NCBI GenBank assembly: GCA_963920765.1
Contig: OY987243.1
Location: forward strand, 13,330,001-13,394,000
DNA length: 64,000 nucleotides
Direction of reading: 5' to 3'
DNA from: Ulota crispa
Lineage: Eukaryota > Streptophyta > Bryopsida > Orthotrichales > Orthotrichaceae
Numbering within the stretch: the first letter of the stretch is position 1; each line of letters starts with the position of its first letter. Shown here one piece after another: positions 8,912-59,413 of the stretch. A program made the position numbers and the translations under genes. The notes under the pieces were generated by a model. The model had not been told where the DNA came from. It made no database searches and saw nothing but the letters and a program-made list of their open reading frames with translations.

Positions 8912-9829
8912 TTAATCCCTAAAATTCTTTTGTGTTTAGAGGCCCAAAATTGCTTTCAAAATATTAGTCCTCAAACCAAGGTCAAAATCTTCATTGAGAC
9001 TTATTTTTTAACAAATCCAACTGTAGGATCCTTTGGTTGACTTGCACAAGTACATTGTCCCAAAATTTCAAAATGAATATCCTTGCCAATTGCAAGATCA
9101 ATGTGCCTAAACTTCAAAATGTAGGCTTTTCTAGTCCTTCTAAAAGGTGAAGTTTTGATTTTCAAACTTTTTAGAAAAAAACATGTTGTATTTCTTGTGC
9201 AATTTTTGCAATATGTTGGAAAATGGGTTGAAAGTATATATAAAAAAATTTAACCAAAAAAAAAATTGGATTCATTTTTACAAAAATTGTAAAGTGAAAG
9301 GTATTGATGAATGAAAGATATAACTAATATGCTAATAAGTTTTGGAAGAGTTTGAAAATTGTTAATCCCAATGGTGAGAATGCTCTAACAGACAATTAAT
9401 AACTTTAATTTTCATTTTCATTTGAAAATTTTCAAAATTGAGAGTAAAAGATAACTTTATATGTTTTTTCTACCCTCTTCCTACCTTCATTGCCCGCAAA
9501 AGAAAACTCCTTGTAACTCTTACCTCATTATTTGGAATTGAGTGCTTCAATTTTTTTTGAGTAGGTATCAATCTATAAAATTCTATAAAAAAATATTAAA
9601 AAAATTTAGAATATATTTTTTGCTGCCCGGTTTGACATTAACATTGAAAAAACCTTCTAACTTTTGCAATACTTATCCAAATGACATGAAATAAAGCTTC
9701 ACATGTAGATTATGATGAGTAGCATCCTTCCTAAAAATTTCATGAAAAATTTCCAAATTATGAAGTCAATAGAGCCTGCTTGAGTTCTCATAAAGCCCAA
9801 AGTGGGTTCCTTGGGCCTTTAGGGGTTAA
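8912..9829 (+). mobile_element. TTAA-flanked element, family E
   Basis: Bounded by TTAATCCCTAAAATTC on the left and GGCCTTTAGGGGTTAA on the right. The same termini, in reverse orientation, bound 53916-55631. It is AT-rich with no transposase. TTAA at both ends fits a piggyBac/Kolobok-type target duplication. Confidence 0.55.
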
Positions 9830-9833
9830 GTAC

Positions 9834-10465
9834 TTGACCCCTAAATGTCAAAACTGTGTCTTTTTTGGCAACATAGCAATTTTGGGCAAGCTAATACTTG
9901 TATAATAATAAACAAATTCCTACAAAGTTTTAGAGGATGTGTGCTTGAGTAGCTTTCTAATACAACAATTTTCAAATCATTTCAATTTGTAGAAAAAAAT
10001 TGTTATGAAGCAATATGTGGTTTTATTTGCTCAAGGAGCAGCACAAACATAATTTTTTTAGTGTAGCTGAAATTTTGGGATCTTGCCCAAAGGTAGAGGT
10101 GTAGAATTATTTCTTTGTCAGATTTGACGCAACCTCATTTTATGTAAGGCAATTGTTTTTACTTACTATCCTTTACTTCACCTTTGTTGAAAGTACTTTA
10201 TGTTGATCATGCTTGTCAGAGCTACAATTTTTGGCTATTTTTTTTTCTTTCACTTCCAAAGTTAGCTAAATTCTAAAACTCCATCATTCACATTTTAAAA
10301 TTAGTTTTTTAATGTTGAAGCCAAAAATTGTTGAAAAAATAGCTTTGTATGTTGAACTCCCCACTTTCAATAAAAATTTCAAAAAATTATACAAATTTGT
10401 ACAATTGTAGGTACATGCCCAAAATCCCATTTGTCCTTTCAAGGGACATTTCAATTAGGGGTTAA
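9834..10465 (-). mobile_element. TTAA-type element related to family A, abutting the previous one
   Basis: The right end, read on the minus strand, is TTAACCCCTAATTGAAATG followed by the family A blocks GGGATTTTGGGCATGTACC and TTTTTTGAAATTTTTATTG. The left end TTGACCCCTAAATG sits four bases after the TTAA of the preceding element. It is shorter than the other family A copies. Confidence 0.5.
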
Positions 10466-10874
10466 ACAAGTTTATTTGCCCATACAAGCAACACAAGGTT
10501 TGAAACACAATCCATGTAATCATCTAATTCTATTGTCTTGAAGTCTTATTTTTCAAAACATATCATATAGTGAGAGAAAGTTGAAAGGTTCTTCCAAGTT
10601 GCTACTTTGCTAACAATTGTCAAAAAACAATCAAATTAATTTCATCTAAGTTGCTATATTGTTCTTAATGACAACATTAGCATCATAAACACCATATTAG
10701 GTAATCTAGGCAAAAGGGAGGTACCATTTTGTATTCCACCTTAAACCCAAAAAGTTACCTTAAACCAGATTCGAAGGTATCAGATTTAGTGTGAGCCACT
10801 AAGATTTTTTCCCTCACAAATTCCTCCTCTCAGATGAGGGCACATGTACCAAAAAAACAAACCTTGAGCTAGGT
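10466..10874. repeat. Left flank with an inverted copy beyond the next element
   Basis: The block at about 10672-10720 (with CATATTAGGTAATCTAGGC) recurs inverted at about 11826-11875, on the other side of the family A element. This suggests that element inserted into an older palindromic one. Part of this stretch (10700-10860) also matches the minus strand of 29690-29830. Confidence 0.4.
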
Positions 10875-11794
10875 TTAACCCCTATAGGACTATTGTCCCT
10901 TTGGGGGACAGGTGGGAGTTTGGGCATGTACCTTTGGATAAGCTACTTTGTGTGATTTTCTGAAACTTTCCTTGAAGGTGGGGAATTCAAAGATCTATGT
11001 AGGCATCTAATTTTTTCCTCACTTTGACAATTATTGAAGAAGTTATGCATGAAAATATGAAAAGCAAGGGAGGACTGCCCACCCGAGCAGCCCAAAAACT
11101 TTTTTAAAAATTAAAATTTGAAATTGGCTCTTTAGATTTTTTTATAGGTGAGAAGCATTGAATCATTCAATTTCAACCCATGACATGAAAGTTATGAGGA
11201 GTTTTTGTTTGCGGGCAGTTATGGAATCTCTACTCTAAAATAAACTTTGAAGTCCTTAATTTTACTTAATTTTCATTATTTTGGAAAAAAACAAAACCAA
11301 AGGATGTAGATTGTTTATCACAACATTATGACTGTTGGGATTTGCACTTTTCATTTTAATAATTAAATTCTTAACAATTTAGTGATTTGACTCATTCTCC
11401 ACTTCTTTTTATTTGCTGATTTTTCCTATGTGTTGTGTAGTTCCAATTGATTTGAAAATTCTCCCATACATAGCTAACTTGATCTCCTACATGGGAAAAA
11501 TAAAGCGCAAAGTTGCATAGAGCAATTATTTTTATATAAGAATGGTCAAAGGCTTCTAAAATTTTGAGGCAGCATGAAAAAAAAAATTTCATTTTACTTT
11601 AGATGTAAATATCTCACTCATCTCCATATGGAATGACATGATTTTTTTTCCACGAGTACCTAATCCAATCTAAGGCAAGATCCTACGGTTGGATTTCCCA
11701 AATTTTCAAAAAAAAAACCTTCTTACTAACCCCCCAAAAATGATAGTTTTGAGTGATTTTCACTGAAAAAATGACTCAATCCTTTAAGGATTAA
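10875..11794 (+). mobile_element. TTAA-flanked element, family A, full copy
   Basis: Starts TTAACCCCTATAGGAC and ends CAATCCTTTAAGGATTAA. Blocks shared with 58479-59413 along its whole length include GGGGGACAGGTGG, TTTGGGCATGTACCTTTGG and TGCGGGCAGTTATGGA, plus a late block with TCCTACGGTTGGATTTCC. The longest open frame (66 codons, minus) belongs to the repeat and is not conserved in the other copies. Non-autonomous. Confidence 0.7.
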
Positions 11795-12368
11795 GGTGAT
11801 CACCTAGAACCTAAAAGTCCCAAAAAGTATCCTTTTGCCTAGATTACCTAATATGATGTTCATAACATTAATGCTATTTCAAGTAATATTTAGAACATGC
11901 TTCATTCATGTTGTTTTTTTGCTATCAATAATATTATCACCACACAATAATAACAAAAAGTGTTTTTTTTACAATAAGAACCACCGTAAGAAAATAATAT
12001 TCAAATTGACGAAATGTATCTAGATCAACAAAAAAAAATGTCCAAATTAAACATTAGCTTCTACTTTTTCACACTCATCCCTTGTAAGATCTCACTTCTC
12101 CACTTCCTCCACCAACCTTTTTCCATTTACCTTTTCCCACTCAACCTTTTCTCCCTAACCCCTTTCCCATTTACCTCTCATACTCACATCATTAGTAATC
12201 TGCTTCCACGATCATTTCTTCTCCAAAAAAAAAAAGACACCCAAGGATTTGTACGTAGAAATTCTATATACCAAAAATACTCAAGTACCTAAAGAAAGGC
12301 CAATTATCATTGCATTATGTGCGATAAATCAATAACTTGATTTTCAGCAGAATGCAAATAAGTTATCT
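11795..12368. other. Intergenic; right arm of the older palindrome, then CT-rich sequence
   Basis: 11826-11875 is the inverted copy of 10672-10720. 12055-12200 is a pyrimidine-rich tract with repeated CCTTTTCCC and CCCTTTCCC motifs. No gene is seen. Confidence 0.4.
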
Positions 12369-12690
12369 TTAACCCCTGGGCGCCCCAGGAGCAGAATCCT
12401 GTCGCTCCAGATTGGAAAACTAGGGCTCCTGATCGCAGATTCGGGTGTACTGGGGTTAGGTGGGAACTGTACCCGTGAGTAGGAGTTAGGGTTTTTTATG
12501 AGCCAGAGTGGGGTCACATGTGCAACGAGTTTACTTTTGGGAAATTTTGGGCCATGATCTTGGGGTGGTTTGAGTTTCAGGTGTCCCTATGGCCGGGACG
12601 ACTACACTAATTATGGTATTTAGTGTTGGCAACATTAATTATGAACCTCAACATTAAATCTCAACAATCTCCTTAATGTTGCCAACATTA
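12369..12690. mobile_element. One end of a TTAA element (family D) and a small hairpin
   Basis: TTAACCCCTGGGCGCCCC at 12369 resembles the terminus at 21440 (TTAACCCCTGAGCGCCC), and the GC-richer interior shares short blocks with it. No partner end is found. At about 12600-12690 ACTAATTATGGTATTTAGTG and an AATGTTGCCAACATTA hairpin follow; a relative lies inverted at about 20860-20910. Confidence 0.4.
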
Positions 12691-13717
12691 TATGTTAATC
12701 TAACATTATTTGTTAATTGTTGTAATTTTAGGGAGTAATTGTTTTTTACAAATTTACATTTAATGTTAGAAATTGATTTTTGGTAGAAGATTGGCCAACA
12801 GACGCAAACGCTTGTAAGGCGAGAGATTTCCACAACTCTACTAAAGAAAAAGGGGAGTCCATTCTCACACTCACTCTTTGCAATACATGTATGGAATGCA
12901 AGATGTATAACAAGCCTTGAAGAAATGTCTGCACATGTTAAATCTTTAAAAGTATACTCAATTTCAAAGAAATTTGCTTCATATCACAAGTACAATATTA
13001 CCACATACAAATACGCCATAAAAGTCAACATTTTATCTTTACAAAATAATGAGAAAAAACTCAACAAATAGTAATGAATATACCACATTTGACTAACTAA
13101 AAATAGTGTTAACATCTGTACAAAAACTTTTGCCAGAATTGAGTCATCACTAAATGGGCTTGCCAAGACAATACTTGGAGGCAACTTTGTGTCAAACATC
13201 ATAACAATTAAATGTCTTGAAGTTCTTGAGGTCACTTTTTGTAGAAATTGAGGTCTCAATACCAAGGTCCTTGACACAATAATCCACCAAACATAAGCAA
13301 AATAAAGCTTATTAATGTCTCCAAAAAATAGTAATGACCAAGACTTTTTTGAGATAAATATTTAAAAATTGAACTTGTTGGCCTAAAACTAAACAAAATA
13401 AAGTGCTCACAAAAGCAAAAAAATCATGAGTTCCAACTTGGACATCTTCATCTTTTGGGAATTAAGAGGGTCATAAAAGGTATTTGGCATAGATGACGCA
13501 TTGATTTGACCTTCAGGTTTAGGTAATCCAAACTCTAGAATATAGGTTTAGGCAACCTACCAAAACAACAAATCAATATCTCATACGTTGCTTGAGGCAA
13601 GTGTTATAATTAGTTGTGCAAAACCAAACTTGATGTTGTCATTGATCTCTTTCACTTGCTTGTAGTCTATAAGTGCTATCTGGCACAAAAAAATCAACCA
13701 TCTTAGGAAAACCCAAC
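12691..13717. other. Intergenic, nothing recognised
   Basis: AT-rich sequence. Short open frames on the minus strand (12746-12934, 12984-13277) have no recognisable motif and no convincing splice context. Confidence 0.4.
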
Positions 13718-13958
13718 TAAGGTAGGAGGCTTTAATTGCGTTTGGGTCCTCATTATGTTCACAGTCTAAGAATAAGGGATTTGTTCCTTCAAATATACTT
13801 TAATGTGATTGATGAGTTAGGTAGGCTTAGCAAATTAAGCAAGTTAACATAACTTGCTAAGCCTACCAAACTCATCAATAACATTAACAAATATTTAAAG
13901 AAATATGCCCCTTATTCCTAGACCGAGAACCTAATTAAAACCCAAACACAACCTTACC
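13718..13958. mobile_element. MITE family M1, copy 1
   Basis: Terminal block TAAGGTAGGAGGCTTTAAT, imperfect inverted terminal repeats extending to AATAAGGG, and a central hairpin (TTGATGAGTTAGGTAGGCTT against AAGCCTACC...CATCAA). A second copy with the same ends and the same central hairpin lies at 47603-47881. Confidence 0.7.
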
Positions 13959-16150
13959 AAAAACCAAAAAAAGAAAAATATCCAATAGTTAAAACTGGTT
14001 GCAGTCATATAACATTGCATCTGTTGGTGAAAAATATAAAGAATTGGACGAAAGAAACTTGCTATGTGACTTGAAAAAGACAAAGCCCTCCTTGGACCTC
14101 TTACCTTCAAAAATTGAATGTATGAAGAGTGGTAGCATAAAAAAAAAATGGATTAAACACATGCCACTGGAATTATTTGCTAAAACAATCAAGAAAGGGT
14201 GTGTTTGCCTTGCCTCTTTTGTTGATGCAAACATTTCTAGGGTGAGGATTAGCCTAAAAGAAGCCATTTATGAGAATCATCTTTCCACACAACATTGCCA
14301 AGTCTCTCAAGATGTTCTTGCAAACACAAGACAAGTCAATATTTGTTAATCATTCTCACATTACAAAAGTATGTTTTAATTGAAAGTTTTAATCCTTGTG
14401 TCATAGATGTTGAGCTACAGCAGTATTGTGCAATTATGGACATCACAAGCCTATCTACACTATAAAAATTGTCTAATGCATCATAGATTTTTTTGCTTTG
14501 CTGAACTAAGCTATGCCCAATATAATTTACATACATAACTGAGTTATTCTAGCCATGATCTTGACTTTTTAGCATATTTGGCAACATAGTCATTGAGGCT
14601 AATATCTCACTTTGCCATTTTAAGATTGGCCCATGACCAACACTTCCTGCATATAATCAATTCAAAAGCTTGAAATTTGTTGGAAAAAGCAAAAGATTTA
14701 AAAAACAACAACGATATTAAATGCAAACAATTGGATTTGAGCATCTCTATAGTTTATGAGGATCAAATATGATTGAAACAACAAACAAGTGATTCATTGT
14801 TTTCAAATAAATTTACTAAATGACCAAGTTTGGCACAAAATCAAGTATCACAATGAAAGATTTCCCTTTGTAAGGTAGGTAGCTTAAATTGAGACTATTT
14901 TCTTCTAAAGCATTCTAGGTGGTTCAAGAGTAGATATAAAGTGGTTCATAAAAAAATGTGTAATCTATTGCAAAAGCCAATCATACTCCTTGATTTCATC
15001 TCATCTCTTTTAAAATCATAAGGGAATGGTTTATAGGAGACCTAAAGTCACAAATAGGTGTCTACTACATAAAATTGCATCAACAATTCAAGGATACTTT
15101 AGAAACTTGAAAATAACTATGTTACATTGGATATCTATTTCTCTTTGTATGAAAAGTAGACAAATACTCTTCATGTCTCAAAAAGCACTTGAAACCCTAA
15201 ACTAGCTTTTATTGTGGCAATTTTCAAGCTACCTACCTTAAGCCAAAGTTGAGGATTTAGAGATGCTGTCCAATTGTCAAGCCTCTTTTATAAAATCAAA
15301 CCCAAATTCAACCTGCAAGAGAGAAACAAACATGTCAGCCAATTTTGAAGATAATCTTTGTTAAAAAAATTCCCAAAGTTCAAGGTATAGGAGATTGTAA
15401 AATCAATGAAAAGGGGGAAGAAAAAAAGGTAAATAAAAATACTTGCTCTTCAAATTCATGTAGTATTGACATCATATCAAATTTTCTGTCAAATCAATGT
15501 AAGAAGCAGAAGGCAAACATTTTTTGCCCTCCAAGGTATTGGACATAGTCACTAAATATGGACATAAAATAAAAAGGTTTAGCAACCAAAAAACAAAAAA
15601 CAAAACAGAAACATAACTAAGATTCAAAAAAGAAAAAAAATACCATGACTAACTAAAGTCATCTTGACTAAGTTTAGAAATTCTAAAACTTTAGCATTTT
15701 CTCTAGGAATCAAAGATTACCTCACGGCAGCGTGCTTTATCATGACACAATGAACGTACATAGCAAAAGGCTATAAATTTGAGATACTTGCAAACTTGCT
15801 ATATCACAAAGTTCATGAGTTAATATCAAAATGCTCAAATAGCCATTTCCATTGTTACACAAGTGTTCAAGTAATTAAACCCAAAAGAGGCTTCAAATGC
15901 AAAGCACAAAATTAAACATACCCACAGGAGCTTTCAATCAATAAACTGGTTTCAATAAAAACATATAAATTAAATGTATGAGGTATTATTCAACTAAAAA
16001 GCAAAAACAAGTCTATTATTCTATAAAATAAAAGAATAGAGTTCAATGCAAATTAACATTGCATTCAATAAAAATAAGAAGCAAAAAGTGCTCAAAAATG
16101 ATAGCAAAATAACAAAAATAATATAAAAATCTTCATATTTATATATAGTG

Positions 16151-16189
<39 letters not shown>

Positions 16190-16204: not shown

Positions 16205-17680
16205 ACATCTTGTCCCTCAAAGTATGGTCTATGCTTTGCAACTATTTCTTGAAGATGTGGAAATAGTTGGTTTATACTCCAAGAACCATCAAGACCTAAT
16301 GCCATACCACAATAGATCATGGCTTTTCTTGCTAACATTGATAAGCTTACCAAACCATTGGCCAGCACCACGAGCTATGTTTTGCCAAGCATTAGCTTGA
16401 ATGAGCTCTAACTTCTTTGCTTCCCACCGTTTGCTCTAAGCGTCTTTTATCTTTGATATGATAAACGTATCAGCAGGTTGACATATGTGAGTGGAACAAA
16501 GAGGCAAATACTTCAGAACAGTTAGCTTTTTGGCTAGCACAGTCCTCAATCTTGGAGTAAGATTGTGACTACCATAGTTATTAGCCTAGACGATCTTGAT
16601 TTGTTGTTGCACATCAACTTGAAATGCTTGAGGTTCTTCAAAATACTGAAAAAAGAGAGTTTGGTCCATCCAACCCTCTGATCTTGTCTTGTAGGTTATT
16701 CCAGGAATATCATCATTAAAGCCTCTAATAGGATAATTACTATTTGAATTAGTAAATATTAGCATTGGAGCTTCTATCGTAGCCCAACGTCCCTCAAAGA
16801 TTCTCACAACCATAGTCATGGAATCTCCACCTGAAACAACTTCAGCATATGTAGCAGAAGTATCTCCTTAAAATTCTAACGTACGACCGTTATCAACATT
16901 GACAACAAAATGGGTTTCATCAATGTTTTCCATTAGATTTTCATCTAATAACCTAGATTGAAACCCCCTATGCAACAAACTTAAATGGTATGCTGTTTGC
17001 ATTTCAATCATTTGTTCTTTTTCCACACTAATTGTTAATCTACCACGTTGAGATAACAAAACAATATTATGAACATCCATAAATTGTTGTACCCAACTAT
17101 GACTTATTTTTTCTATGAGCAATACATTATCTTTCGGATCTCTAGAATGGTTAGTGTATATAGAGTCAAGAGCTAACAATATGTTAAGTGCTAATTCAAT
17201 TAGTAAAGTTGCAGAAAATTTAACCCCAGATTTTTCAAACCCTTCAAATGCTTCAAGTAGTTTAGGGTAAAGCCATTGCACCCAATCAAACCGTTTGTGG
17301 CCACGTCTAGAAGCAGCTTTCATACGCATTCGCTTCTGCATTCTAAGACGGCTTCTACTACAAGAAAATGCCAAATTGGAATCTTCACCAATATCATTGA
17401 AGAATTGGTCACGCAATTTCCACCACCTTGATGCCTTCATGAGGTTGGCGCTCTTTTGTCCTCAAAATTGCTTTGGGAAAACTCCAATTGTGTGTGTGCA
17501 AAGGCCTCTTACACCGTGCAATGCTTCATCCTCAATCATCCAAGCAATGACATTTTTGCGTGTTGCAATGGTTGAAACTTGTTGCAAAACACGCGAAACG
17601 CCAATGTTGGGATTCATATTGTGAAGAGGATGATCTTGACAAGCAACATCATCATCTATAGTACTAGAAGATGGAGAACC
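16205..17680 (-). pseudogene. Decayed DDE transposase gene (pogo/CENP-B-like superfamily endonuclease)
   Basis: One reading frame on the minus strand, entered by an acceptor at about 17680, runs MNPNIGVSRVLQQVSTIATR, then KASRWWKLRDQF, a basic RMQKRMRMKAASRRGHKRFD segment, LMENIDETHFVVNVDNGRTL (first catalytic Asp), then VVRIFEGRWATIEAPMLIFT, YPIRGFNDDIPGITYKT and EGWMDQTLFFQYFEE. After that come ANNYGSHN (where D-N-x-x-G-H is expected), LPLCSTHICQPADTFIISKI and KDA-stop-SKRWEAKK. Stops interrupt it at 17462-17464, 16868-16870, 16586-16588 and 16436-16438, and the frame shifts near 16340-16375 before ending in GQDV at about 16205. The third catalytic Asp codon now reads Asn. The order and motifs fit DDE endonucleases of the pogo/Tigger type. 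No terminal repeats of the element were found. It is dead and unrelated to the TTAA elements. Confidence 0.8.
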
Positions 17681-21439: not shown

Positions 21440-22229
21440 TTAACCCCTGAGCGCCCCCAACGCCTCAAATTGGGGAGCCCAAAATCATACTTTTGTAAAA
21501 AATCTTGTTTGCATCAGGGGTACTGGTCGGGAATTGTACTTGGGTTTAGGGTATTGTACTACTCTCATGCCACAAAGTGGATGATCGGATTTTGCCACTT
21601 GTACAAGCGCGGATTGTGCAAGTCAAGTATGACAATAATACGCCAAAATGTCATTTTGTGCGATTTAGGGTTTGGGCGCGAGGATAGAGACCACCAAATA
21701 TAGCCGGTTCCATACCGTAAGGGGTGTTTTGGCACAAATGTTTTAGAATGGAGAAGGGTTTTGCAGCTATACTGCCAAGAACCGTGCCCTTGTGGAGGAC
21801 AAGGCTGTGCCTATCCCTATCTATCGTTCACCATGCCATGTGAGCCTTGCAACTTTGGGCCTCTCAAAAAGCACCTTGTGGATATCAGAACATTACCAAA
21901 TCTGGCAGCAAGCAAGATTCTTATAAATTTCACCCTCTTCCTAAATTTCATCAAAAAGAGCCTCCTTTGAGGCATGAATTTTTGCATCCAAAGCCACAAA
22001 CCCCCCAAATTTGGATGGTTGCCACATAGTCAACTAACTATTATAATTTACAAAATGGTGCGGTCAAAAGTTTTGCAAATACCTGGTTGGATGCATCAAA
22101 CACCTTTTTTGCTATTTCAACAGTGAATTCTCCTTGATCTCAGTTCCCAACTCGGGGCGTATAATGTTTTTGAGCATGGTCACTCCTGGCCTCATTTTCT
22201 CATTTTCACTCCAGGCGCTCAGGGGTTAA
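21440..22229. mobile_element. TTAA-flanked element, family D
   Basis: Starts TTAACCCCTGAGCGCCC and ends GGCGCTCAGGGGTTAA, about 13-bp matching inverted termini sharing the CCCCT start with families A-E but with a GC-rich continuation. The left TTAA is shared with another, leftward-running terminus (GGGTGCTCAAGGGTTAA). Confidence 0.6.
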
Positions 22230-23225: not shown

Positions 23226-24295
23226 TTAACCCTAAAGGACCATGCCATTTTTTCTGTGAAAATCACTAAAACTTACTACTTCTAGGAGGTTTAGAAAAAA
23301 GGGATTTTATGTTTTGTTTTTGGGAAATCCAACGGTTGGATCTTGCCCCATACTAGAAGAGTTAAGTGTGGGAAAAAAACTAGTTCATTCCATACAAAGA
23401 AGAGTGAGATACTTACATCTAAAGTGAAAAAAAAAGTTTTTTTCCATGTTGCTCAAAAATTTCAGGAGCCTTTGACCACTCTTATAACAAAAAAGTTGCT
23501 CTACCCAAAATTGCGCTTTTTTTTCCATGTAGGAGATCAAGTATGTGTGGGAGAATTTTTAAATCAATTGGAACTATACAACATATGGGAAAAATCAGTA
23601 AGTAAAAAGAAGTAGAATATGAGTCAAAAATTTTAATTATTGAAATGAAAAATGCAAATCCCAATAGTTATAATGTTGTGATAAACAATCTACTTCCTTC
23701 AGTTTAATTTTTTTCCAAAATATTGAAAATTGAGTGAAATAAAGGACTTCATAGTTTATTCTAGAGTAGAGAATCCATAACTTCTTGCAAACAGAAACTC
23801 CTCATAACTTTTATGTCATTGATTGAAATTGAATGATTCAAAGCTTCTCACCTTAAAAAAAAATCAAAAGAACCAATTTCAAATGTAAATTTTTTAAAAA
23901 TGTAAACTTTTTAAAAACGTAAAGTTTTTAAAAACGTAAATTTTTTAAAAATGTAAATTTTTTAAAAATGTAAATTTCTTAAAAATGTAAATTTTTTAAA
24001 AATGTAAACTTTTTAAAAATGTAAACTTTTTAAAAATGTAAATTTTTTAAAAATGTAAATTTTAAAGAAATTATTGGGTTGCTTGAGTGGGCAGTCCTCC
24101 CCAAATTTTCATAAATTCATGCATAACTTCTTCATCAAATGTCGGAATGAAGAAAAAATTTGATGCCCACATAGATCTTTGAATTCCCCACCTTCCAAAA
24201 AAAGTTTCAAAATATCACACAAAGTAGTTTAGCCATAGGTACATGCCCAAAGTCCAAGTTGTCCCTTGAACGGACAATGATCCTTTAGGGGTTAA
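23226..24295 (-). mobile_element. TTAA-flanked element, family A, reverse orientation
   Basis: Starts TTAACCCTAAAGGACC and ends GATCCTTTAGGGGTTAA. Interior blocks are the reverse complement of 10875-11794 and 58479-59413 in the same order. It carries an extra 18-bp minisatellite expansion that the other copies lack. Confidence 0.7.
23880..24064 (+). repeat. 18-bp minisatellite inside a family A element
   Basis: About ten copies of a unit like AAAATGTAAATTTTTTAA, expanded from the single AAATTTGAAAT-like site of the other family A copies. Confidence 0.85.
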
Positions 24296-24331: not shown

Positions 24332-25061
24332 TTAACCCCTAAAGGACCACTTGTCCTACGGGGGACAAATGGGATTTTGGGCATGTACTTATGGCTAAAC
24401 TAATTTGTGTAATTTTTTGAAACTTTTATGGAAGATGGGGAATTCAAAGATCTGTGTGGGCATCTAATTTTTTTCCTAATTTTGACATTTATTGAACAAG
24501 TTAAAAAAGAATTTATGAGAACTTTTGTTTAGCGGGCAGCCCAAAAACTTCTTTAAAATTTTCGTTTTTTTAAAATAAAAATTTGAAGTTAGTTCTTTAG
24601 ATTTACATATATATTGGAAGCTTTGAATCATTTAGTTCTAATTGATGAGATAAAAGTTATGAGAAGTTTTAGTTTATGTATAGGCATAGTTTTGAGATTT
24701 TCCACACCTACTTGCAAACTAAAACTTCTCATAACTTTCATCTCATCAATTAGAATTGAATGATTCAAAGCTTCCCACATATACGTAAATCTAAAGAGCT
24801 AACCTCAAATTTTTGCTTTAAAAAAAGCTCGATTTTAAAAAAAGTTTTTGGGCTGCCCACCAAACTAAAATTCTCATAAGTTCTTTTTGAACTTCTTCAA
24901 TAAATGTCAAAATTAGGAAAAAAATTAGATGCCCACTCAGATCTTTGAATTCCCCATCTTCCATAAAAATTTCAAAAAATTACACAAAGTAGTTTAGCCA
25001 TAAGTACATGCCCGAAATCCCATTTGTCCCCCGTAGGGACAAGTGGTCCTTTAGGGGTTAA
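24332..25061. mobile_element. TTAA-flanked family A foldback: near-perfect 730-bp palindrome
   Basis: Both ends read inward as TTAACCCCTAAAGGACCACT. The arms stay matched over roughly 350 bp each, through GGGGGACAAATGGGATTT, CATGTACTTATGGCTAAAC and GGGGAATTCAAAGATCT to a centre near 24700. It consists of two family A left ends joined tail to tail and lies 36 bp from the previous copy. A transcript would form a long hairpin. Confidence 0.8.
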
Positions 25062-26498: not shown

Positions 26499-27119
26499 TT
26501 AACTCTTGAATGCCCAAGGCCATGAAACTGAACAATCAACCAACCTCTTCATCAATTTCATCAAGTTTTTTAAAAATTGTAACCGTAAAAATTTAAATCA
26601 AACATGTTAGAGATTACATGGAAAATGAAGATACAACAATATCACTTATTGTTTGAAGTGTTATAATATTTGAACATGAGGGTGTTAAAACTACAAAAGT
26701 GAATTGAAGTTTTCCAATTCTCATTTTACATGTCAAATCTCGGAAGTTGGTCATTACAAGAATGTGAGGTCAAAGGTCATTACATGTTTAACTTTAGTCA
26801 ATTTACGGCTTTCAAAATCTACTCCTACATATTTTGTAAATAAATTTCTAATGTGGATTTTTCTCCAAGCTTTGACTCATTTTCATGATTTTTCAACACT
26901 AGAAAACTCAGGATTGCAGTAGAAACCCTTGTACAAAATATTGGGTAGGAAAATTATCAACATTCATTTTCAAAATCAGATTTTTGGTGTCAAAAACGAA
27001 CTTCAAAATAAACTTAAATTGAAAAGAAAAAATCTCAAAACAATAACTTCATAAGAATTTATTAATTTTCAAAGTTTTATAAACAACCAAATTGGGTGCC
27101 TTGGACATTTAAGGGTTAA
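26499..27119 (+). mobile_element. TTAA-flanked element, family B, copy 1
   Basis: Starts TTAACTCTTGAATGCCCAAG and ends GGACATTTAAGGGTTAA. The interior (TACATGTCAAATCT, then a GGTCAAAGGTCATTACATG block) matches 35273-37090 in the same orientation and 50919-51572 inverted. No coding sequence. Confidence 0.65.
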
Positions 27120-27902: not shown

Positions 27903-28020
27903 TGTTCACACTTTGTATTAAGAGGGGTATTGGCAATATAAATGTAGTCTAAAGGTGTGTCCAAATGCATCTAATTTTCCTTTGTTACTACCACTCTTAA
28001 CACTAAGTGTGAAAGTACTC
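27903..28020. mobile_element. MITE family M2, copy 1
   Basis: Inverted termini TTCACACTTTGTATTAAGAG and CTCTTAACACTAAGTGTGAA. The inner block GTGTCCAAATGCATCTA and TTGTTACTACC match 36938-37074 in reverse orientation. Confidence 0.65.
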
Positions 28021-32823: not shown

Positions 32824-33056
32824 TTACCCTTAAACGACCAAAAGGTCCTTTGCAACCAATACAATATGGGGTATTTTTCTTGTATTTGGAATGGATCCAC
32901 ACTTTTACTACATTTGAGACCAATAAAAGAGTTGGAGAATAGATCAATGTGGTTCTAGTGAGTTACTAGAGATTTCAAATTAAAATTTCTTATTGGTAAC
33001 AAATAACAATTATACGTCAACGTATATACTATGCCCTATGGTCGTTTAAGGGTTAA
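32824..33056 (-). mobile_element. Short TTAA element, family C, copy 1
   Basis: 233 bp with termini TTACCCTTAAACGACC (left) and GGTCGTTTAAGGGTTAA (right). It matches 40061-40287 in opposite orientation over its full length (CTACATTTGAGA, TGGAATGGATCCACAC, GAGTTACTAGAG). A typical small non-autonomous element. Confidence 0.75.
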
Positions 33057-34312: not shown

Positions 34313-35276
34313 TTAACCCCAAATTATCCAAGGCATCAGATTTTGGTGGTCCAATTTTTTTAGGAAACTTCTAAACCCTGTTGAAGGCACAAATTTGATT
34401 GCTTTGAGGTTTGTTTTTTTTGGAAAAACTGCGTGCTAAAGTTAGCTTCACTATTCAAGTTTAATTTCCTCCATATCTTATTCCAATTGTTTTTGGTGGA
34501 AAGTTAATGGCAAGCATACATTTGGTGTCATGAATAGTGTTGTGAATAGTGACACAAAGCCTATGGCAAGTTGCCACATTGAATAGATGGGCATCAAGTT
34601 GGGAAAATGATGAAGATTTCCCTTGGGCACTCCCATGGGCGGTAAGGGCCATTTTACTAAAATTTTGACATCTAACAAAATCTAAAAGTGCTTTTGGACT
34701 AATTCCACTTGGAGTGTCTTTGTTATACAAATTAGAATTCATTTGCCGTTGAATTTTCTTTAATTCATAAAGATTTTTGGTCAATAACTAAAGCTAAAAA
34801 TATTCTTTGTATGAGGCAGTTATGCTTTGACAATTGCATAACCAAAGCTAAAAATATTCTTTGTATGAGGCAATTATGCTTTGACAGTTGCATTGCAAGT
34901 TCATTTGTGAAATTGTGGTCATGGATTAGAAAGCAGGGACATTAGTTCTCAAGTACCAACAATAAACACTAAAGCATCCTAAGTGGTTGTTTTCTAGTTT
35001 TCTATCCATAAGTTGCCAATTTGCATTAGAATTTTGGGCAGCTCCAAAAAATGCAAAAAAATCCATATTCACCATCATTCAGTCACAAGTATCTTAAAAT
35101 TTGTGTGGCCATTTTGGATTATTTTTGGGTAGCACCATCTAGAAGCCTTGAAGTTCAAGATTCAAAGGTTACAATTTTATTTTGATGTTTGATATTGATC
35201 TTGCAAGAACAATTCAAAAATTTCAAAACAGCCCTCTGAAAACAAGAAAAACACCCTTGGGCATTTAGGGGGTTCA
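34313..35276. mobile_element. TTAA-type element abutting family B
   Basis: Starts TTAACCCCAAATTATCCAAG, related to the family B terminus at 50919, and ends GGGCATTTAGGGGGTTCA. The last four bases are shared with the next element. It contains the 54-bp tandem duplication at 34790 and incidental minus-strand frames (34461-34784). Confidence 0.45.
34790..34897 (+). repeat. 54-bp tandem duplication
   Basis: AAAGCTAAAAATATTCTTTG followed by TATGAGGCAGTTATGCTTTG occurs twice, at 34790 and 34844, with only single-base differences. Confidence 0.9.
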
Positions 35277-37090
35277 CTCCTAAATGCTCAAGGCCTTATT
35301 GAGCTTCTAGGAATTTTTTCTAAATTGAACAAAAAGCCAACAGTTTAACAAGTTGTACCAGTTTATTTATTTTAAATGTAAATGTACAAATTCAAACTAG
35401 ATATGTTAGAGATCACATAGGAAAAGAAAACACAACAATCTCATTTATAAATAGAAAGATTATAATGCTTGAGATTAAAATTGCAGAAATGACTTGGAGT
35501 CTTTTAATCCTCTTTTCACATATTGAATCTAAAAAATTGGGCACCAAAAAAATACAAGGTTAAAAGACATAACATGCATAACTCCAATTACTTTATAGCT
35601 TTTCAAAATGTCTTCTACAATTTTTTTAAATTAGTTTTTAGTGCAAATTTTTCTTCAAGATCTAGTGTATTTAACTCTTAAAATTTTCAGCCATTTTGAA
35701 GGTGTTTTGGATCTCAATTTTGTAAGTTATGAAAGGGTGAAGCTTGAAGTACAATGAGTCATTTTTAGGCCAAAGTAACTGTAAGATCTTGTAGAAAGCC
35801 AAGTCCTTATCATCTCTACAAATTTTGGCTTCAATCCAAGGATTAGATTAGAAGATTATAACAAAAATGTAAAGGGTACTATAAGGAAATAAATATCTTG
35901 GAATAGTTGAAATTGTGCTTTGATTGGCTATTTTGGACACATAACATTTTAAAAAGTTGGCATCTTATGCTCATTCTCAAGGCAACCAAGTTCCACATGC
36001 ATAGAAACAAGGCTTGTATTTTTAGGGTAAAAAATGAGTGAGAAAATGGTATTGCAATAGTGACCACTTCATTGTTAAATTTCAAAAATTGTGAGTAAAA
36101 CATAAGATTTTCACAAATCTAGGGCTAGAATTTAATACTACAACTCCTAGACCACCCATGGTTTGATTTTTTTTGTAGATTCAATAAATACTCTTCTTTT
36201 AAATTTGAAAACACCACTACATAGCTAACTTGTTTCTCTTTCAAATGAGCCAAAGTTCAAGTGACTCTTTACATTCCTAAGTTCATAAATGGCCATCTTA
36301 AAAAACAATCATCCCATTTTGGGTTGCTAAATTTTTTAAGGGTTAATACTTATTTCCAAGAGCTCTCTCAACACTACAAAAAGTTGGAACCCTTGCACAA
36401 AATCTCTCAATAGAAAAATCATAATCAATTATTTTAAAAATCAAAGTTTTGATGCTAAAACTAGTGGACCCTTGTACTCGCCGTTCTGGCGGAGGGCCAT
36501 CACGGGAGGGGGTCCTTGCAAAAATATTAACATGACCTCCTCATAATCACCTTCTTCAGGCTTCTTCTCCTTTCTGTTACAATGAGCTTACTTGTACTAT
36601 GCCTACCTATGCGCTTTGCCTCCTTCTCTAAGTGTCCACCCCTATTCCCGTGTATACCCCATCCCCAAGGACAACCATAACTGCCACATAACCATAGAAA
36701 TAAGAATAACCGCCACATAATCGCCATTTAATCTTCTTGGAGCAACACCCAACTACCTAACTAATAGAGATTTTATTCTATTACAAACACCCAACTACCC
36801 AACTAATGAAACCAAGCCTATTATTAGTATAAACTAGACTTCAAAAAGAATATGTCAAAAAAATAAACTACTAAAAAATAACAACTTAGTTAGGTTTTAT
36901 TGAACTTCAAAGTATTGTCAACACCCAAATTGGGTGCCTCAAGATATGTCCAAACTTGGTGTTAAATATGGTAGTAGCAAAGGGAAAACTAGATGCATTT
37001 GGACTTATGTTTAAACTGCATTCATGTTCAGTGTTAATACCCTTTCTAACACCAAGTGTGAACATACCTTGAGGTATTTAGGGGGGTTAA
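35273..37090 (+). mobile_element. Family B element, long copy with nested insertions
   Basis: Starts TTCACTCCTAAATGCTCAAG (TTAA mutated to TTCA) and ends GGTATTTAGGGGGGTTAA. The interior matches the other family B copies up to about 36450 and again at 36870-36937. 36470-36850 is a foreign GC-richer insertion, and a family M2 MITE sits at 36938-37074 within the right terminus. Confidence 0.6.
36938..37074. mobile_element. MITE family M2, copy 2, nested in family B
   Basis: Inverted termini CCTCAAGATATGTCCAAACT and AGTGTGAACATACCTTGAGG. The body matches 27903-28020 inverted. It splits the family B terminus between ACCCAAATTGGGTG and TATTTAGGG. Confidence 0.7.
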
Positions 37091-40060: not shown

Positions 40061-40287
40061 TTAACCCTTAAATGACCATAAGGTATAGTACATACGTTGC
40101 CATAAAATTGGCAATTGCTACCAATGAGAAGTTTTAATTTGAGATATGAAGTAACTCACTAGAACCGCTTTGATCTATTTTCCAACCTTTTTGTTGATCT
40201 CAAATGTAGTAAAGGTGTGAATCTATTCCAAATACAAGAAAAAAGCTACGTATTGTACTAGTTGCTGCTCAAACATTTGGGGGTTAA
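40061..40287 (+). mobile_element. Short TTAA element, family C, copy 2
   Basis: 227 bp, TTAACCCTTAAATGACCATA at the left, TTTGGGGGTTAA at the right. It is the reverse complement of 32824-33056 throughout and keeps perfect TTAA at both ends. Confidence 0.8.
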
Positions 40288-50918: not shown

Positions 50919-51572
50919 TTAATCCCTAAATACCAAAGGCATCATATTTTGGTGCCAACAATATTTTGAAGTTTAATAAAACTCAACTAAGTTGCTATTT
51001 TTAATATTTGGTATTTTAAAATTATTCTTTTTGAAGTCTAGTTGTAGCATCAAAAATCTAATCTTGAAAATTATTAATTCTGAATTTTCTATTCAAGATT
51101 TTGTGCAAAGGTGTCTATTGCAATCTTGACTTTTTTAGTATTGAAAGCTCATGAAAATGAGCCTCAAATACACTAGATATTGGAGAAGATTCCACGCTAG
51201 AAATTCATTTAAAAAATTTGTAAAAGAAATTTTGAAAATCCATAAATGGATTGAAATTATGTATGTAATGTCCTTTAACCTCATATTTTTTTGGTGACCA
51301 ACATTTTAGATTTGACATGTGAAAAGAGGATTGAAAGACTTGAAGTTGTTTTTACAGTTTTAACACCCTCTTGATCAAACGTTATAATCTTTAAATCCAT
51401 AAGTGGTATTCTTGTATTTTCTTTTCTTGTATAATGTTTAGCATATTTAGTTTGAATTTGTACAGTTACAATTTAAAAATATATAATACAATGTATCAAA
51501 ATACTAGCTTTTTGTTCAATTTAGAACAAATTCCCAGAAGCTCAAAAAAGGCCTTGGGCATTTAGGAGTTAA
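50919..51572 (-). mobile_element. TTAA-flanked element, family B, copy 3
   Basis: 654 bp, TTAATCCCTAAATACCAAAG at the left and GGGCATTTAGGAGTTAA at the right, with the family B body inverted relative to 26499 and 35273. The cleanest family B copy. Confidence 0.7.
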
Positions 51573-53210: not shown

Positions 53211-53224
53211 GTATATGTATATGT

Positions 53225-53257
<33 letters not shown>

Positions 53258-53320: not shown

Positions 53321-53915
53321 ACATATCCACATGTGTAGATTTATGCATACATACATGTATATATACATAAAATCAAATAGAAACTCTAACATTCAAATGT
53401 AGTCGCATGTGAAGTTTACAATATGCATTTTCAACTTATTGTTGTTTTCTATAATTCTTTTGTTTAACTTAGTTTATTATTAATTTTCTTAAGGAGGACA
53501 TATAAATTTAAAAAGTTAGAAAATTGAGAATTTCATTATTCTATTTATGTGTCTAATTGCAATATAATTAAATAAGCATAATTCTCATCATCATTTATTT
53601 GAATTTTTATTTTAGATTTTCAACGTTCCTTTTTATACGTATGTTTATTTCAGTACAATTATTATTTTGTACAAATAACGTTTTTTTTGTTTTTACAAAA
53701 CGAATAAAAATACACGGGTTGATTTAAGTTAAGATAAACGTCTCCTATAGATTATACCACCCCAAAAAAACTCCTTTTTTGCATACATACACTGCCTTTG
53801 GACATTAAAACAAAGCAGGTAAGAACTAAAATACGTAGAATGTTTAGATATGGTGTCAGAATAAAGTTGGTGCAATTTTACAAAGTAAAGGGTTGAATTT
53901 GTAGACAAAACGATG
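53321..53915. other. Intergenic, nothing recognised
   Basis: AT-rich, no supported feature. Confidence 0.35.
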
Positions 53916-55631
53916 TTAACCCCTAAAAGACCAAGGAGCCCTCTTTTGGTTTTTGGGATATTAGGGCAAGCATTTCTCAAGTAAATGCATAAGATAAAGT
54001 AAGGGTGTATGTGCTCATATTGAAAATCTTGCATTCCTACCCAAAAAAAGTGAAATTGAATCATGTTTTAGTGAGATATGGTATCATATGTGATTTAGAT
54101 GTCAACATAGGCATCCTTAGAAAAATTCAAAAACAAAGCGATTGAGGAAGGGTGTTGCCCAAATAGTGTTCAAAAGCGCTTTACAATGGCTTGGTCAATG
54201 GGCAAAATTTTCAGTCAACTCACCTTGACTACGTAATAACTTCTAATTTGCTTTTTATTTTTGGAAATAATTCCTTTGCCAAGTACTCCACATGGTGTTC
54301 TAGGTTTACATTGCACAAATTTTGTAATTGAGATTTATTACTATAACAATCTCTTTAGGAAGTTCTCTTAGAGTAATGACAATTTCAACAAAGTAGTTCT
54401 TGCTTCTAATTTTTTCCTCTATGTTTTAAGCATTGGATGATCATGAAATTTGTGAGGCTCATAGCCAACTTCATGCTCTACAAGAAAGTTAAATTGCACA
54501 AGAAATTCATAAAGCTTGGGTGGATCACTCTTTGTATGTTGGGTACCCCACGTGCGGCGAGGGGGTAATTTATAGGGGGCTATTTAGTTCCTTGGGCCAA
54601 ATAAAAGGGTCCCTATAATTATATAATTGGGTCAAATGGCCAATTTTAGGGCACTTTTTAATTACTTATAAGCGCTATGCAATTTTTTTTCTTAGGCTAT
54701 CTTCTTTATAATTGAAAATTTAGAATTGTTAAGTAATTTGACAAATTAAGCTTTAGGGGTTAGGATGCAAATGCATGATGCTGTCATAAGTAATTTCATG
54801 ACAAATATCAAATCCTTCATGGAAATATTCAATGCAAATAGAAAAGCCTCTTCACTCCAAAAATTCAAGTGTAAATCAACTAAGAGTCAAAGCATGTGAA
54901 TGAACTCCGTTTACATGTATGTGTTAAAAAAACCCTATTGCGCACAAGCCAAATGAAACAAGTTGAAACCTAGAAGGCCAAATGTGCACCAACACCAAGC
55001 AACAAAACCTTGACCCAAAAGTGAAGTAGACCCTAACCATCCATCCACATTTGTTGCCCTCATTTTTCATCACCCAACACTTGGCACCCTCATTGGAATA
55101 TCAGATACCCTATACCCACCATAATTACAGTAGGATCATAAGATACCCCACAATATTGGCCCCTTAATTATTTGTAAAAAAAAGTAATGAGGCATGTTTA
55201 AACCCTACCTATATTACTTATACTCAATTTTGCCATTTGAATGAACCCTTTCTTAATTGTAAATTTTTTATAATTATTACCTCAAAAGAATAAACCCCTC
55301 TCTATATTATGCCGCACGTCAAATTTAAAATGCGTTAAGTTATCCACCCGGGTCATAAAGTGGAAGATATCATTTTGAACAGCCAAAAAAAGATTGACAC
55401 CTTAGAAAAGCTTCAAAAAAAATTTGATCCTACTTTGAGTGTTATTATCTAATGAAATATGCCCTTACAAAGTCTAAAATTTTGAAAGGGTGTACATAAG
55501 TAAGCAAAAAATAGATCTTACGGTTGAATTATTGAAAAAAAATCAAAAAATTGACCCAGTAATCATTTTATTGAGAGAGGTTCATTTTGAGCCATTTGAC
55601 CATGTAAACGCGGAAGAATTTTAGGGGTTAA
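53916..55631 (-). mobile_element. TTAA-flanked element, family E, long copy
   Basis: Starts TTAACCCCTAAAAGACCAAG and ends GAATTTTAGGGGTTAA, the reverse of 8912-9829. At 1716 bp it is nearly twice that copy; an internal CTTTAGGGGTTAG at 54751 may mark a further element within it. A 111-codon minus frame (53729-54064) runs over its border and is incidental. Confidence 0.5.
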
Positions 55632-55965
55632 ATGCATCCATTATTTACCAAAACACATAGATTATCCTGATTAGGGTAATACATTTTTTTTTTCATTGTT
55701 GTGTTAATCCCATATATTATTGTAGTGATTAGAATTTTGAAACGAAAATCACTTACGGGATTAATTCTTTTGATCAAATTCATGTAATAATGAAAATGAA
55801 GGTGTAATGATGTACAATCAAAATTGTATAACATTGGTTTCAAAGCTACACAATATTTTTAATATTTTTTTAAGCTCTAAACTAGTCCTCTATACCCGTA
55901 GTACTAACGGGGCAATGCATAAGTTTAAAAAAATGAACCTCCACACAAATTGTCCTTTTGAAAAA

Positions 55966-56102
55966 AGGGAAATTGTCCAAAATGACAATAACTTGTTCAA
56001 ATCAACATGGCTAAAAATTGTTCAATTTGACAATCTTTTTGTCATTTTGGACACATTTAGTCAATTTGGACATGTCAATTAGGACACAATTTCTTGTAGT
56101 GT
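55966..56102. mobile_element. CACTA-type MITE, copy with intact right end
   Basis: Body GGGAAATTGTCCAAAATGAC to TTGTCATTTTGGACACATTT matches 6874-7022. It ends TTCTTGTAGTG, the inverted CACTA signature; the left end has decayed. Confidence 0.65.
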
Positions 56103-56189
56103 TCCCTACCTTTTCCTATCCCTCCCTAGTGAGATGTGTTTCAATTTCAAAATTTGAGAAACATAAAAACAACTAATGTTACAAAAAAC

Positions 56190-56420
56190 ATGAAATGCCC
56201 CTATGCCCCATCCATGTCCCCATGCCCCCCATCCATGCCCCAAAGCCATGCCCCCCATCCATGCCCCAAAGCCATGCCCCCCATCCATGCCCCAAAGCCA
56301 TGCCCCCCATCCATGCCCCAAAGCCATGCCCCCCATCCATGCCTCGGAGCCACGCCCTCCATCTGTGTCCCCATGCCCCCCATCCATGCCCGAGCCATGC
56401 CCCCATGCTAGCCTAGCCAA
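56190..56420 (+). repeat. C-rich 26-bp minisatellite
   Basis: The unit CATGCCCCCCATCCATGCCC plus CAAAGC repeats with a 26-bp period (for example CAAAGCC at 56241, then 56267). It is far more GC-rich than its surroundings. Frames of 65-104 codons are open in all six phases because the unit lacks stops in any frame; this is no evidence of a protein. Confidence 0.95.
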
Positions 56421-56494
56421 GCCCTCGATCCTAGTGCCCAGATCTCAGGGTCAGCCATATCCAATCCTAGGCCTAGCCTAACCATACCCTATCC

Positions 56495-57120
56495 CAGCTA
56501 CACCAAATAGTGCATTTAGGTTGCCCCAAACAAATTTCTTGACATTCTACACTATTTAAATACTTATAATTGTTACAGTAATTTTCAGCAATAATTATTG
56601 TAATAAATCATTTTTAAAAGACTTGATAAGTACTACAAAGTTGTAGAAAGATAAACAAGCAATATCCAAGTTGTTCATTAAGTGAAATCTAAATATGTAA
56701 AGAGTTGCATGCACTTCCAAGTGGGCAAGTGGTGGGTCATGAGGTAACTTTCCAAAGTAAGGCAACCCAATTGTTGAGGCAGCCTAAATACATTATTTGG
56801 TGTACACCAAATATTGCATTTAGATTGCCCCATACTAATTCTTTGACATTTCACACTAATCAAATAATTACTAAGACTACAGTAACTATTGTCATTAATT
56901 ACTGTGATAAACATTGGAGGAAGTAAGCAAAGGTTGGGCATAGCAACAAGCATCAAAGTCATGAAGTTAGAAAGCTAGAACTTTAGACAAAATGAGGATT
57001 TATTGTAGCATAAAGAGAGTTGCATGCCCCTCTAGGTGGTCAAACGTGAGTTACGAGGTAACTTTGCCAAGGTAAGGCAACCTAATTGTTAAGGCAACCT
57101 AAATACACTATTTGGTGTAG
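56495..57120. repeat. Dispersed family H cluster, second locus
   Basis: Blocks such as TTCTTGACATTCTACACTAT, GCATTTAGGTTGCCCC and TGGAGGAAGTAAGCAAAGGT match 6400-6830 and 7040-7180 in order. The CACTA MITE that interrupts family H at 6874 lies beside rather than inside this cluster. Confidence 0.65.
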
Positions 57121-57927
57121 TTTTAATTATGTTATAAAACTGAACAACTGATCACCACAAACATAATTGTCATAATATTAAATTGTAGATATAGATAATT
57201 GAGCAAAAATACTAAGAATACTTCTATTAATTAAGCCAAAAGAACAAAAATCCCTTTAAAACATCTATATTATTCATAATGCATGATTTTATTTTGCAAA
57301 GTCATACAACATAGTTTTCTTTAAGTTCTTTAGATAGCTTTCTTTTAGATCTAATAGACTTTTCAAAAGGTTCATCATCCACTGTCTTGATGATTGAGCT
57401 TTTAGAGGTTTCAGGGATGTTACCAATCCAAAGTAATGTTAATATTGGAATTTTGACTTTACATGTATCTCAAAATTACATCACAAACTTCTTAATAAAA
57501 AGTCTATGCTAGTTTTCTTAATAAAATGTGTATCACATAATTTTATATAATAAGTATATGTCTTGCACAAGCTTTTGATGAACGTCTCTTAATTTCTTGT
57601 GTGACTTTTTGACCTTGCCATTTCCTCTCCCTCTCCTATTCAAAATTTTAATGACTTTTCACCCTCTCTTGCCCTACCTTTTCTTCTCCCTTCCCTCCTC
57701 AAATCTTGTATGACTTTTCACCCTCCATTTTCCTCTCCCTTTTCTTTTCCCTCCTCCCTTGAATTTCATATTTTGGGTGACTAAAAAACACTCAATGCTT
57801 GACACACAAAACTTACAATAGAGGATTTCAAACTTACACAAAAGAATTCAGAAAAAACCCCAATGACTTTTCACCATCAACTTAGGTGCCTTTTCCTCTC
57901 CCTTCACCCCTCTTTAATAGAACTTAT
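57121..57927. other. Intergenic with a CT-rich tract
   Basis: 57610-57760 is pyrimidine-rich with repeated GACTTTTCACCCTC and TTCCTCTCCCT blocks. No gene is seen. Confidence 0.4.
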
Positions 57928-58273
57928 AATCATTACAAGGGATTTGGACCTCCAAAGGGGTTGTGAGTTTTTCTGTTCCTGATGTTGGGAACCAGCCCCT
58001 CATGGTCATCAGAAAAATTAATTAAAAACATATAAAAATATAAAAATATAAAAAATATAAAAAAGTCTTAGAAAAACATATGAAAATTTTAGATTTGAAA
58101 AAAATTATTTATTTTCTCAAAAAATAAAAAATAAAAAAATAATATAAGCTGATGTGGTCGACGTAATGCCAGCCTGGCTTGCAGCACACTGCCCATGTGG
58201 AAGGTGTTCCCAAAACTCTCATGGATTTGGGGGAAGGGGCCTCTTTGGGGGTCCAAATCCCTTGTAATGATTA
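57928..58273. mobile_element. MITE with 35-bp inverted termini, TA borders
   Basis: TAATCATTACAAGGGATTTG at the left and CAAATCCCTTGTAATGATTA at the right. The termini continue matching into GGACC(T/C)CCAAAG. The interior is A-rich. A TA at each border fits a Tc1/mariner-like target. Confidence 0.8.
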
Positions 58274-58478
58274 ATGTAAAATTATATCATGAGATGGACA
58301 ACCCATGTTGTTAATGAGACAAACGTACAACTTGCTTCTCTATAGTATAGATTATCTAAACAAAAGTCTAAAAATAGTCATTTAAAAATCTACCAACATG
58401 AATTTTGTAAAAAAGGTTAAATTTATATCTATTACCCATCGCTATAGGTTTGATCATATTGACAAGCACAATTTTGTT

Positions 58479-59413
58479 TTAACCCCTAAAGGACTGCTAT
58501 CCCTTTGGGGGACAGGTGGAAGTTTGGGCATGTACCTTTGGATAAGCTACTTTGTGTGATTTTTTGAAACTTTTATTGAAGGTGGAGAATTTAAAGATCT
58601 ATGCGGGCATCTAAATTTTTCCTCATTTTGACAATTATTGAAGAAGTTATGCAAGAATTTTTGAAAATTTGGAGAGGACTGCCCTTCCAGGCAGCCCAAA
58701 AACTTCTTTAAAATTTAATTCTTTTTAAAATTAAAATTTGAAATTGGTTCTTTAGATTTTTTTATAAGTGAGAAGCATTGAATCATTCAATTTCAACCAA
58801 TGACATGAAAGTTATGAGGAGTTTTTGTTTGCGGGCAGTTATGGATTCTCTACTCTAAAATAAACTTTGAAGTCCTTTATTTGACTCAATTTTCATTATT
58901 TGGAAAAAAAATTAAACTAGAGGAAGTAGATTGTTTATCACAACATTTTGACCATTGGGATTTGCAATTTTCATTTCCATAATTAAATTCTTAACAATTT
59001 AGTGATTTGATTCATTCTCTACTTCTTTTTACTTACTGATTTTTCCCATGTGTTGTGTAGTTCCAATTGATTTGAAAATTCTCCCACACATAGCTAACTT
59101 GATCTCCTACATGGGAAAAATAAAGCGTAAAGTTGCATAGAGCAATTATTTTCATGCAAGAATGGTCAAAGGCTTTTGAAATTTTGGAGCAACATGAGAA
59201 AAAACTTTTCATTTCACTTTAGATGTAAATATCTCACTCATGTCCATCTTGAATGACATGATTTCTTTTCCACGAGTACCTAATGTAGTCTAGAACAAGA
59301 TCCTACGGTTGGATTTCCCAAATTTTCAAAAAAAAACCTTCATACTAACCCCAAAAATGGCAGTTTTGAGTGATTTTCACTACAAAAAAATGGCTCAGTC
59401 CTTTAGGCGTTAA
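58479..59413 (+). mobile_element. TTAA-flanked element, family A, best-preserved full copy
   Basis: Starts TTAACCCCTAAAGGACTGC and ends TCAGTCCTTTAGGCGTTAA, so the termini are inverted repeats of about 16 bp inside TTAA. Collinear with 10875-11794 over about 920 bp. No transposase frame. Confidence 0.8.

Follow-up and report, generated by a model that had tools for sequence, protein, structure and literature searches.

TTAA-bounded, MITE-like elements in the Ulota crispa genome as probable non-autonomous members of the piggyBac superfamily

Transposons of the piggyBac type are known mainly from animals, and Sola3 is another superfamily that targets TTAA. The mechanism described for insect piggyBac proceeds through hairpins on TTAA (PMC7351741), and the tip of piggyBac elements is given as CC[C/T]T (PMC2872659), while Kolobok elements have 5'-RR termini (PMC9587614, PMC6004289). 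According to one abstract, piggyBac has so far been obtained from insects, fungi and plants (PMC10813416). They make up 0.48% in the brown alga Ectocarpus (PMC12477816), are tabulated with 1,230 copies and 0.00% in the fern Ceratopteris (PMC6890710), and are listed as a class of miniature inverted-repeat transposable elements (MITEs) for angiosperms (PMC10004981). The main text of a MITE survey of 207 plant genomes was found by term search to contain neither 'piggyBac' nor 'TTAA' (PMC12550479), and in the open-licence literature, judged by title and passages, we found no study of piggyBac in streptophyte algae or bryophytes. Here we analyzed 64,000 nucleotides of the streptophyte Ulota crispa (contig OY987243.1, positions 13,330,001 to 13,394,000, forward strand; hereafter the window). 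The 15 TTAA elements carried by the window are very probably MITE-like, non-autonomous representatives of the piggyBac superfamily that were mobilised in trans by the transposases of 5-6 kb piggyBac transposons located elsewhere in the genome.

At least 14 TTAA-bounded elements with a common terminus, covering about 12 kb, had been proposed from the letters of the window. Every coordinate was rechecked and all 14 elements were found to start and end where they had been placed; their union was computed as 12,224 bp, or 19.1% of the window. TTAA was unaltered at 24 of the 28 element ends. The altered target sites were TTGA at 9834, TTAC with one base lost at 32824, and a single TTCA common to the ends at 35273/35276. 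The first base after the TTAA site was a C or T in 28/28 ends. The consensus tip is CCCCT, matching coral family III, while single ends vary (TCCC, CTCC, CGCC), and the tip common to the families comprises the first 8-12 bp. At most two mismatches to the 12-mer TTAACCCCTAAA were found at 24/28 ends (that at 23226 scored one base out of register); the poorer ends were 26499, 35276 and 37090 with three mismatches each and 32824 with an indel.

The exact 12-mer was present seven times in the window on both strands, far above the chance level of about 0.1. In eight first-order and eight third-order simulations of the window it was present 0 and 0.125 times, respectively; 60 anagrams, with the TTAA before them retained, had a mean count of 0.05. 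Allowing one mismatch resulted in 21 hits and nine convergent adjacent +/- pairs, seven of them shorter than 2 kb (shuffled p 0.0009 and 0.003). Allowing two mismatches behind an intact TTAA resulted in 31 hits and 11 pairs, 10 of them shorter than 2 kb (p 0.023 and 0.001). Apart from TTAA, the flanks showed no direct repeat in any of the 15 elements, which are listed below with their strand; families were defined by BLAST within the window plus end alignments, and L numbers denote loci fetched from the same genome.

8912-9829, minus: family A, non-autonomous element of 918 bp; both asymmetric ends match 53916-55631; superfamily by termini only
9834-10465, unstranded: TTAA element with a family-B-type right end and left site TTGA; right 114 bp match B-1 ends
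10875-11794, plus: family B, 920 bp; 88.6% to 58479-59413; 568-920 match the L029 right end, 77%; related empty sites
21440-22229, unstranded: family E, 790 bp; inverted ends identical over 16 bp, TTAA included; end comparison and genome copies
23226-24295, minus: family B with an internal 17-bp minisatellite; window BLAST, match to piggyBac loci
24332-25061, unstranded: family B fold-back of two like B-1 ends, arms of ~345 bp; window BLAST
26499-27119, minus: family C, 621 bp; 72% to 50919-51572; related copy in L013
32824-33056, minus: family D, 233 bp, left site TTAC; 83% to 40061-40287 over 205 bp; copy in L032
34313-35276, plus: family C-type, 964 bp, internal-deletion derivative of a piggyBac transposon; matches L026/L016 ends
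35273-37090, plus: family C, ~650-bp core with nested insertions, left TTCA shared with 34313-35276; window BLAST
35671-36346, unstranded: TTAA element of family F, 676 bp, located inside the family C copy 35273-37090; related empty sites
40061-40287, plus: family D, 227 bp; window BLAST, match in fetched loci
50919-51572, minus: family C, 654 bp; 86% to an end-to-end copy in L013
53916-55631, plus: family A, split by the nested insertion 54515-55352; end alignment and genome search
58479-59413, plus: family B, 935 bp; window BLAST, match to piggyBac loci

Family A consists of 8912-9829 (reversed) and 53916-55631, which have both ends in common and interiors that are mostly not. Family B comprises the elements at 10875, 23226 and 58479, the fold-back 24332-25061 and the right end of 9834-10465, and family C those at 26499, 50919, 35273 and, by its ends, 34313. 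Family D is represented at 32824 and 40061, family E at 21440 and family F by 35671-36346, a fifteenth TTAA element located inside the tenth element of the earlier set (35273-37090). In families A, B and C the left end is unlike the right end and each end is conserved between copies, which supports the element boundaries. The ends of A and C were found by eye to be alike over ~20 bp, those of other family pairs over less. Uninterrupted elements of the several families measure 227-1070 bp, and 53916-55631 without its 838-bp nested insert is a TTAA element of ~870 bp. No transposase was recognised by eye in stop-free pieces of at least 45 aa from 12 of the 15 elements, with no family search made. 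MITEs are short, non-coding and have ends in common with an autonomous element; the window elements are of this kind, the sharing of ends being observed for families B and C.

Related empty sites were sought by joining the flanks of candidate elements with one TTAA and comparing them with the window and the sequence of the fetched loci; 55 candidate end pairs from 91 ends were used, many of them not true elements. This look for single-TTAA sites, proposed in the sequence-only reading, gave junction-spanning matches for four insertions: 10875-11794 and 35671-36346 with three comparators each (window, L013 and L026 in both cases), and L010 1501-2455 and L021 514-1452 with one each. All eight comparisons were gapless at the 4-bp site, with an overall identity of 74-81%, as is predicted by TTAA duplication. 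The comparator site was TTAA in two cases, one base off in five and two bases off in one; the L026 comparator of 35671-36346 has a single TTAA. The remaining 51 candidate pairs gave no junction-spanning match at the limits used.

The assembly to which the window belongs (274.8 Mb in 157 contigs) was searched for the piggyBac transposase domain PF13843, and at least 120 matches were found with a best E of 1.3e-73, a lower bound with 116 of 528 candidates scored. None were found in 14 control genomes, those named being prokaryotes. Ten of the 120 rows were stop-free within the match. The sequence-only reading had proposed a search for a piggyBac or Kolobok transposase flanked by the same termini. 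Among 20 of the 120 places that were fetched, 12 have the piggyBac transposase between paired TTAA ends located 5,026-6,343 bp apart. Of these 24 ends, 21 have an intact TTAA and 23 start with CC (the left end of L014 with CT). In the close relatives L013, L018 and L022 the distance from the left end to the domain is the same, 2,524 bp. At 389 aa, the piece of L023, a locus without identified ends, is the longest stop-free one in the 20 loci and matches the solved piggyBat (2.6e-24) and piggyBac (7.6e-20) transposase structures. By our own count on the printed alignment, its aspartates align with piggyBac 268, 346 and 447, the active-site triad D268, D346 and D447 (PMC7351741). A DDD transposase of the PF13843 type between such ends is a property of the full-length relatives, not of the window elements themselves.

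Families B and C are homologous to the ends of such loci. Positions 1-271 of the family C-type element 34313-35276 correspond to the left end of L026 (66%) and 533-959 to its right end (76%), while 357-959 correspond to the right end of L016 (77%). Its first 60 bases agree in 43/60 columns with L016 and 42/64 with L026, the shuffled maxima being 35 and 36. Since both ends of an L016/L026-type transposon are matched, this element derives from that lineage by deletion. In L029 and L030 the right ends are located 1,706 and 1,757 bp after the domain, and the ~350 bp leading up to them are matched by family B (77% and 72%). Neither locus was found to match the left half of family B, and the right match is therefore the transposon's own end rather than a neighbouring passenger copy.

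Several observations weigh against the assignment to piggyBac. In most window elements the two ends agree only at the short tip, and an inverted-repeat test of left against right end exceeded 40 shuffles in only 5/14 elements, so that most share just this tip and long inverted repeats are exceptional. Inverted repeats, of 12-19 bp in the piggyBac superfamily, are clear in 21440, 24332 and 32824, repeats near 17-22 bp in 26499 and 58479 were not above shuffles, and the others have the short tip alone; for 40061 the best match of the test lay away from the tip. Six of the eight comparator empty sites deviate from TTAA by one or two bases, and a 4-bp duplication of TTAA looks the same in the sequence as a 2-bp duplication of TA within a TTAA target. 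The paired ends of the transposase loci were chosen by similarity, partly by eye, without a chance control, and 8/20 loci (L019, L023, L024, L025 and L027-L030) have one, unmatched or no ends within 9.9 kb. Family B was matched at one end alone, and a donor for its left end was not found in the 20 loci; nor was a full-length donor for families A, D, E and F, which we infer by their termini alone to be putative piggyBac members.

Altogether, the ends, the empty sites and the transposase loci with homologous ends agree with TTAA-targeting DNA transposons of the piggyBac type. By analogy with the insect element, a DDD transposase would bind the CC-rich ends, cleave with hairpins on TTAA and insert the element at a new TTAA, with one TTAA left per side. 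The window elements would be mobilised in trans by their 5-6 kb relatives. Several divergent piggyBac lineages are present side by side in the genome; the ends are particular to each lineage, as presumably are the passenger families, whereas the TTAA-CCCCTAAA tip is found in several of them. Oppositely facing TTAA-type ends share one four-base site at 35273-35276 and at 21440-21443, as though the TTAA of an older element had served as the target of a later one. Putative solo ends at 12369 (+), 21443 (-), 25085 (+) and 38060 (-), for which no partner was identified, were left out of the element count.

In the sequence-only reading the common tip was taken as expected if one transposase mobilised all families. 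The first 8-12 bp are common across families, and cross-mobilisation of similar ends is plausible. However, when the 20 loci were grouped by pairwise identity of stop-free partial pieces against each DNA domain, about nine groups resulted with an identity threshold of 50% and seven with one of 42%, and the nine groups were 24-55% identical to each other on these partial pieces. The ends diverge by transposase group after the first bases: those of L016/L026 resemble family C and those of L015/L029/L030 family B, such that two groups carry the ends of different window families, with family B fitting the L029/L030 group and family C the L016/L026 group. A single piggyBac lineage mobilising all families is consequently improbable. 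The common 8-12 bp looks like a feature of several host piggyBac lineages and not the mark of one enzyme, and several lineages, each with its own passenger families, would be the simplest reading.

It could also be argued that another TTAA superfamily (e.g., Sola3), or TA duplication within TTAA, made some of the families and that the piggyBac copies are incidental there. This would fit with no full-length A, D, E or F donor having been found among the 20 loci, but families B and C are homologous to piggyBac locus ends over ~350-600 bp and the remaining families have the same tips, and we consider it very unlikely. Kolobok, the other candidate of the sequence-only reading, also duplicates TTAA and has been reported from a chlorophyte and red algae (PMC9587614). 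Its 5'-RR...YY-3' termini are at odds with the C or T start of all 28 ends, and the loci with homologous ends code for a piggyBac transposase; we rejected Kolobok on its termini, no search aimed at its transposase having been made, and that enzyme as the source of the TTAA duplications is extremely unlikely. A telomere-repeat origin of CCCTAAA was considered less likely, since paired TTAA ends and transposon-end homology explain the motif better.

The piggyBac-type elements are not confined to the window. The 12-mer TTAACCCCTAAA was found 30,972 times genome-wide (15,477 + 15,495), compared to 77 for a reversed-pattern control, which corresponds to 7.2 per 64 kb; the window, with seven, is thus typical of the genome. 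The 17-mer TTAACCCCTAAAGGACC was found 8,154 times, the family C 20-mer TTAACCCCTAAATGCCCAAG 2,742 times and TTAACCCCTGAGCGCC 1,568 times, all with a control of 0. The 13-mer CCCCTAAAGGACC was found 9,597 times (control 3) and is preceded by TTAA in 8,154 cases (85%). Convergent pairs were hand-picked from the first listed places, at less than ~1.2 kb for the 17-mer and less than 1 kb for the family C 20-mer. Among these, 13/17 of the 17-mer pairs had a length of 903-963 bp, equal to that of family B in the window, and 17/19 of the 20-mer pairs a length of 637-664 bp, equal to that of family C. For the family E element 21440-22229, 18 of 39 other copies aligned exactly over 1-790 with 78-87% identity (40 of 308 candidates scored). 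With 30,972 exact 12-mers and at least 120 transposase matches, the heavy load in a streptophyte suspected from the window alone was borne out. Extrapolated from this one window, the share of the genome that derives from piggyBac may be about a fifth. We lean towards the view that piggyBac is a leading repeat class of this streptophyte, in which non-autonomous copies number in the tens of thousands, cover that share of the sequence and are sustained by many transposase lineages that diverged anciently and have one end motif in common.

Some other contents of the assembly were recorded. Contig C157 carries a rubisco large subunit gene with an adjoining frame, which we take to resemble accD; the solved enzymes scoring best against this rubisco are presumably mostly from plants. 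Radial-spoke genes were found on a large contig, which speaks against a flowering plant, a conifer or a member of the Zygnematophyceae and fits a streptophyte that has flagellate cells. In L034 (contig C97) rubisco and accD-like frames are fused to a bacterial-looking frame, and this contig is possibly chimeric or a contaminant. The window also has an exon with matches to At4g16450, a complex I subunit, and relatives.

Several window elements carry further repeats. The 838-bp insert 54515-55352 in 53916-55631 is a high-copy hAT-like element with the 8-bp direct repeat TCATAAAG. In the genome search with 53916-55631, all 41 other rows fell within this insert or along its borders (40 of 1,021 candidates scored), and its full-length copies had 87-92% identity among the matches listed. 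The family C copy 35273-37090 contains an insert of ~370 bp at 36458-36837 with the 7-bp direct repeat AAACTAG, and copies of this insert in L013 are 93-94% identical. A palindromic repeat of ~110 bp is present near the end of the same copy (36951-37064) and at 27903-28011, and the 17-bp minisatellite of the family B element spans 23881-24063 with ~11 copies. Outside the elements, a 197-aa frame on the minus strand (16868-17461), presumably a fragment of a pogo/Fot-type DDE transposase, and a 751-aa open frame of RQS-type repeats (61747-63999) both lacked a Pfam match up to E 0.1.

Elements of this kind are known and plant reports exist; it is the load and the diversity of lineages that would be surprising. 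If true, with at least 120 transposase matches and ~31,000 exact motifs, a class otherwise present in traces would be a major one in this lineage. The genome would also be a natural source of transposase/end pairs with which to study end recognition, and would warn that TTAA elements can be overlooked (compare the main text of PMC12550479).

The elements and their full-length relatives share the TTAA target, the short CC-rich ends and a DDD transposase aligned at three aspartates with Trichoplusia ni piggyBac and Myotis piggyBat, from which they differ in having a streptophyte host. The end-bounded transposase copies are 5.0-6.3 kb, whereas four coral piggyBac-like elements are given as 2.2-3.7 kb (PMC2872659). 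The coral CMITEs described in that study are likewise MITEs related to piggyBac; they duplicate TTAA and have CCC-rich ends, which in one family start with CCCCT, but measure 96-108 bp compared to 227-1070 bp in several families here (PMC2872659). With the angiosperm piggyBac MITEs they have in common the occurrence in the plant lineage; the listing itself gives no transposase evidence or load (PMC10004981), whereas in Ulota crispa transposases and ends are found in the same genome.

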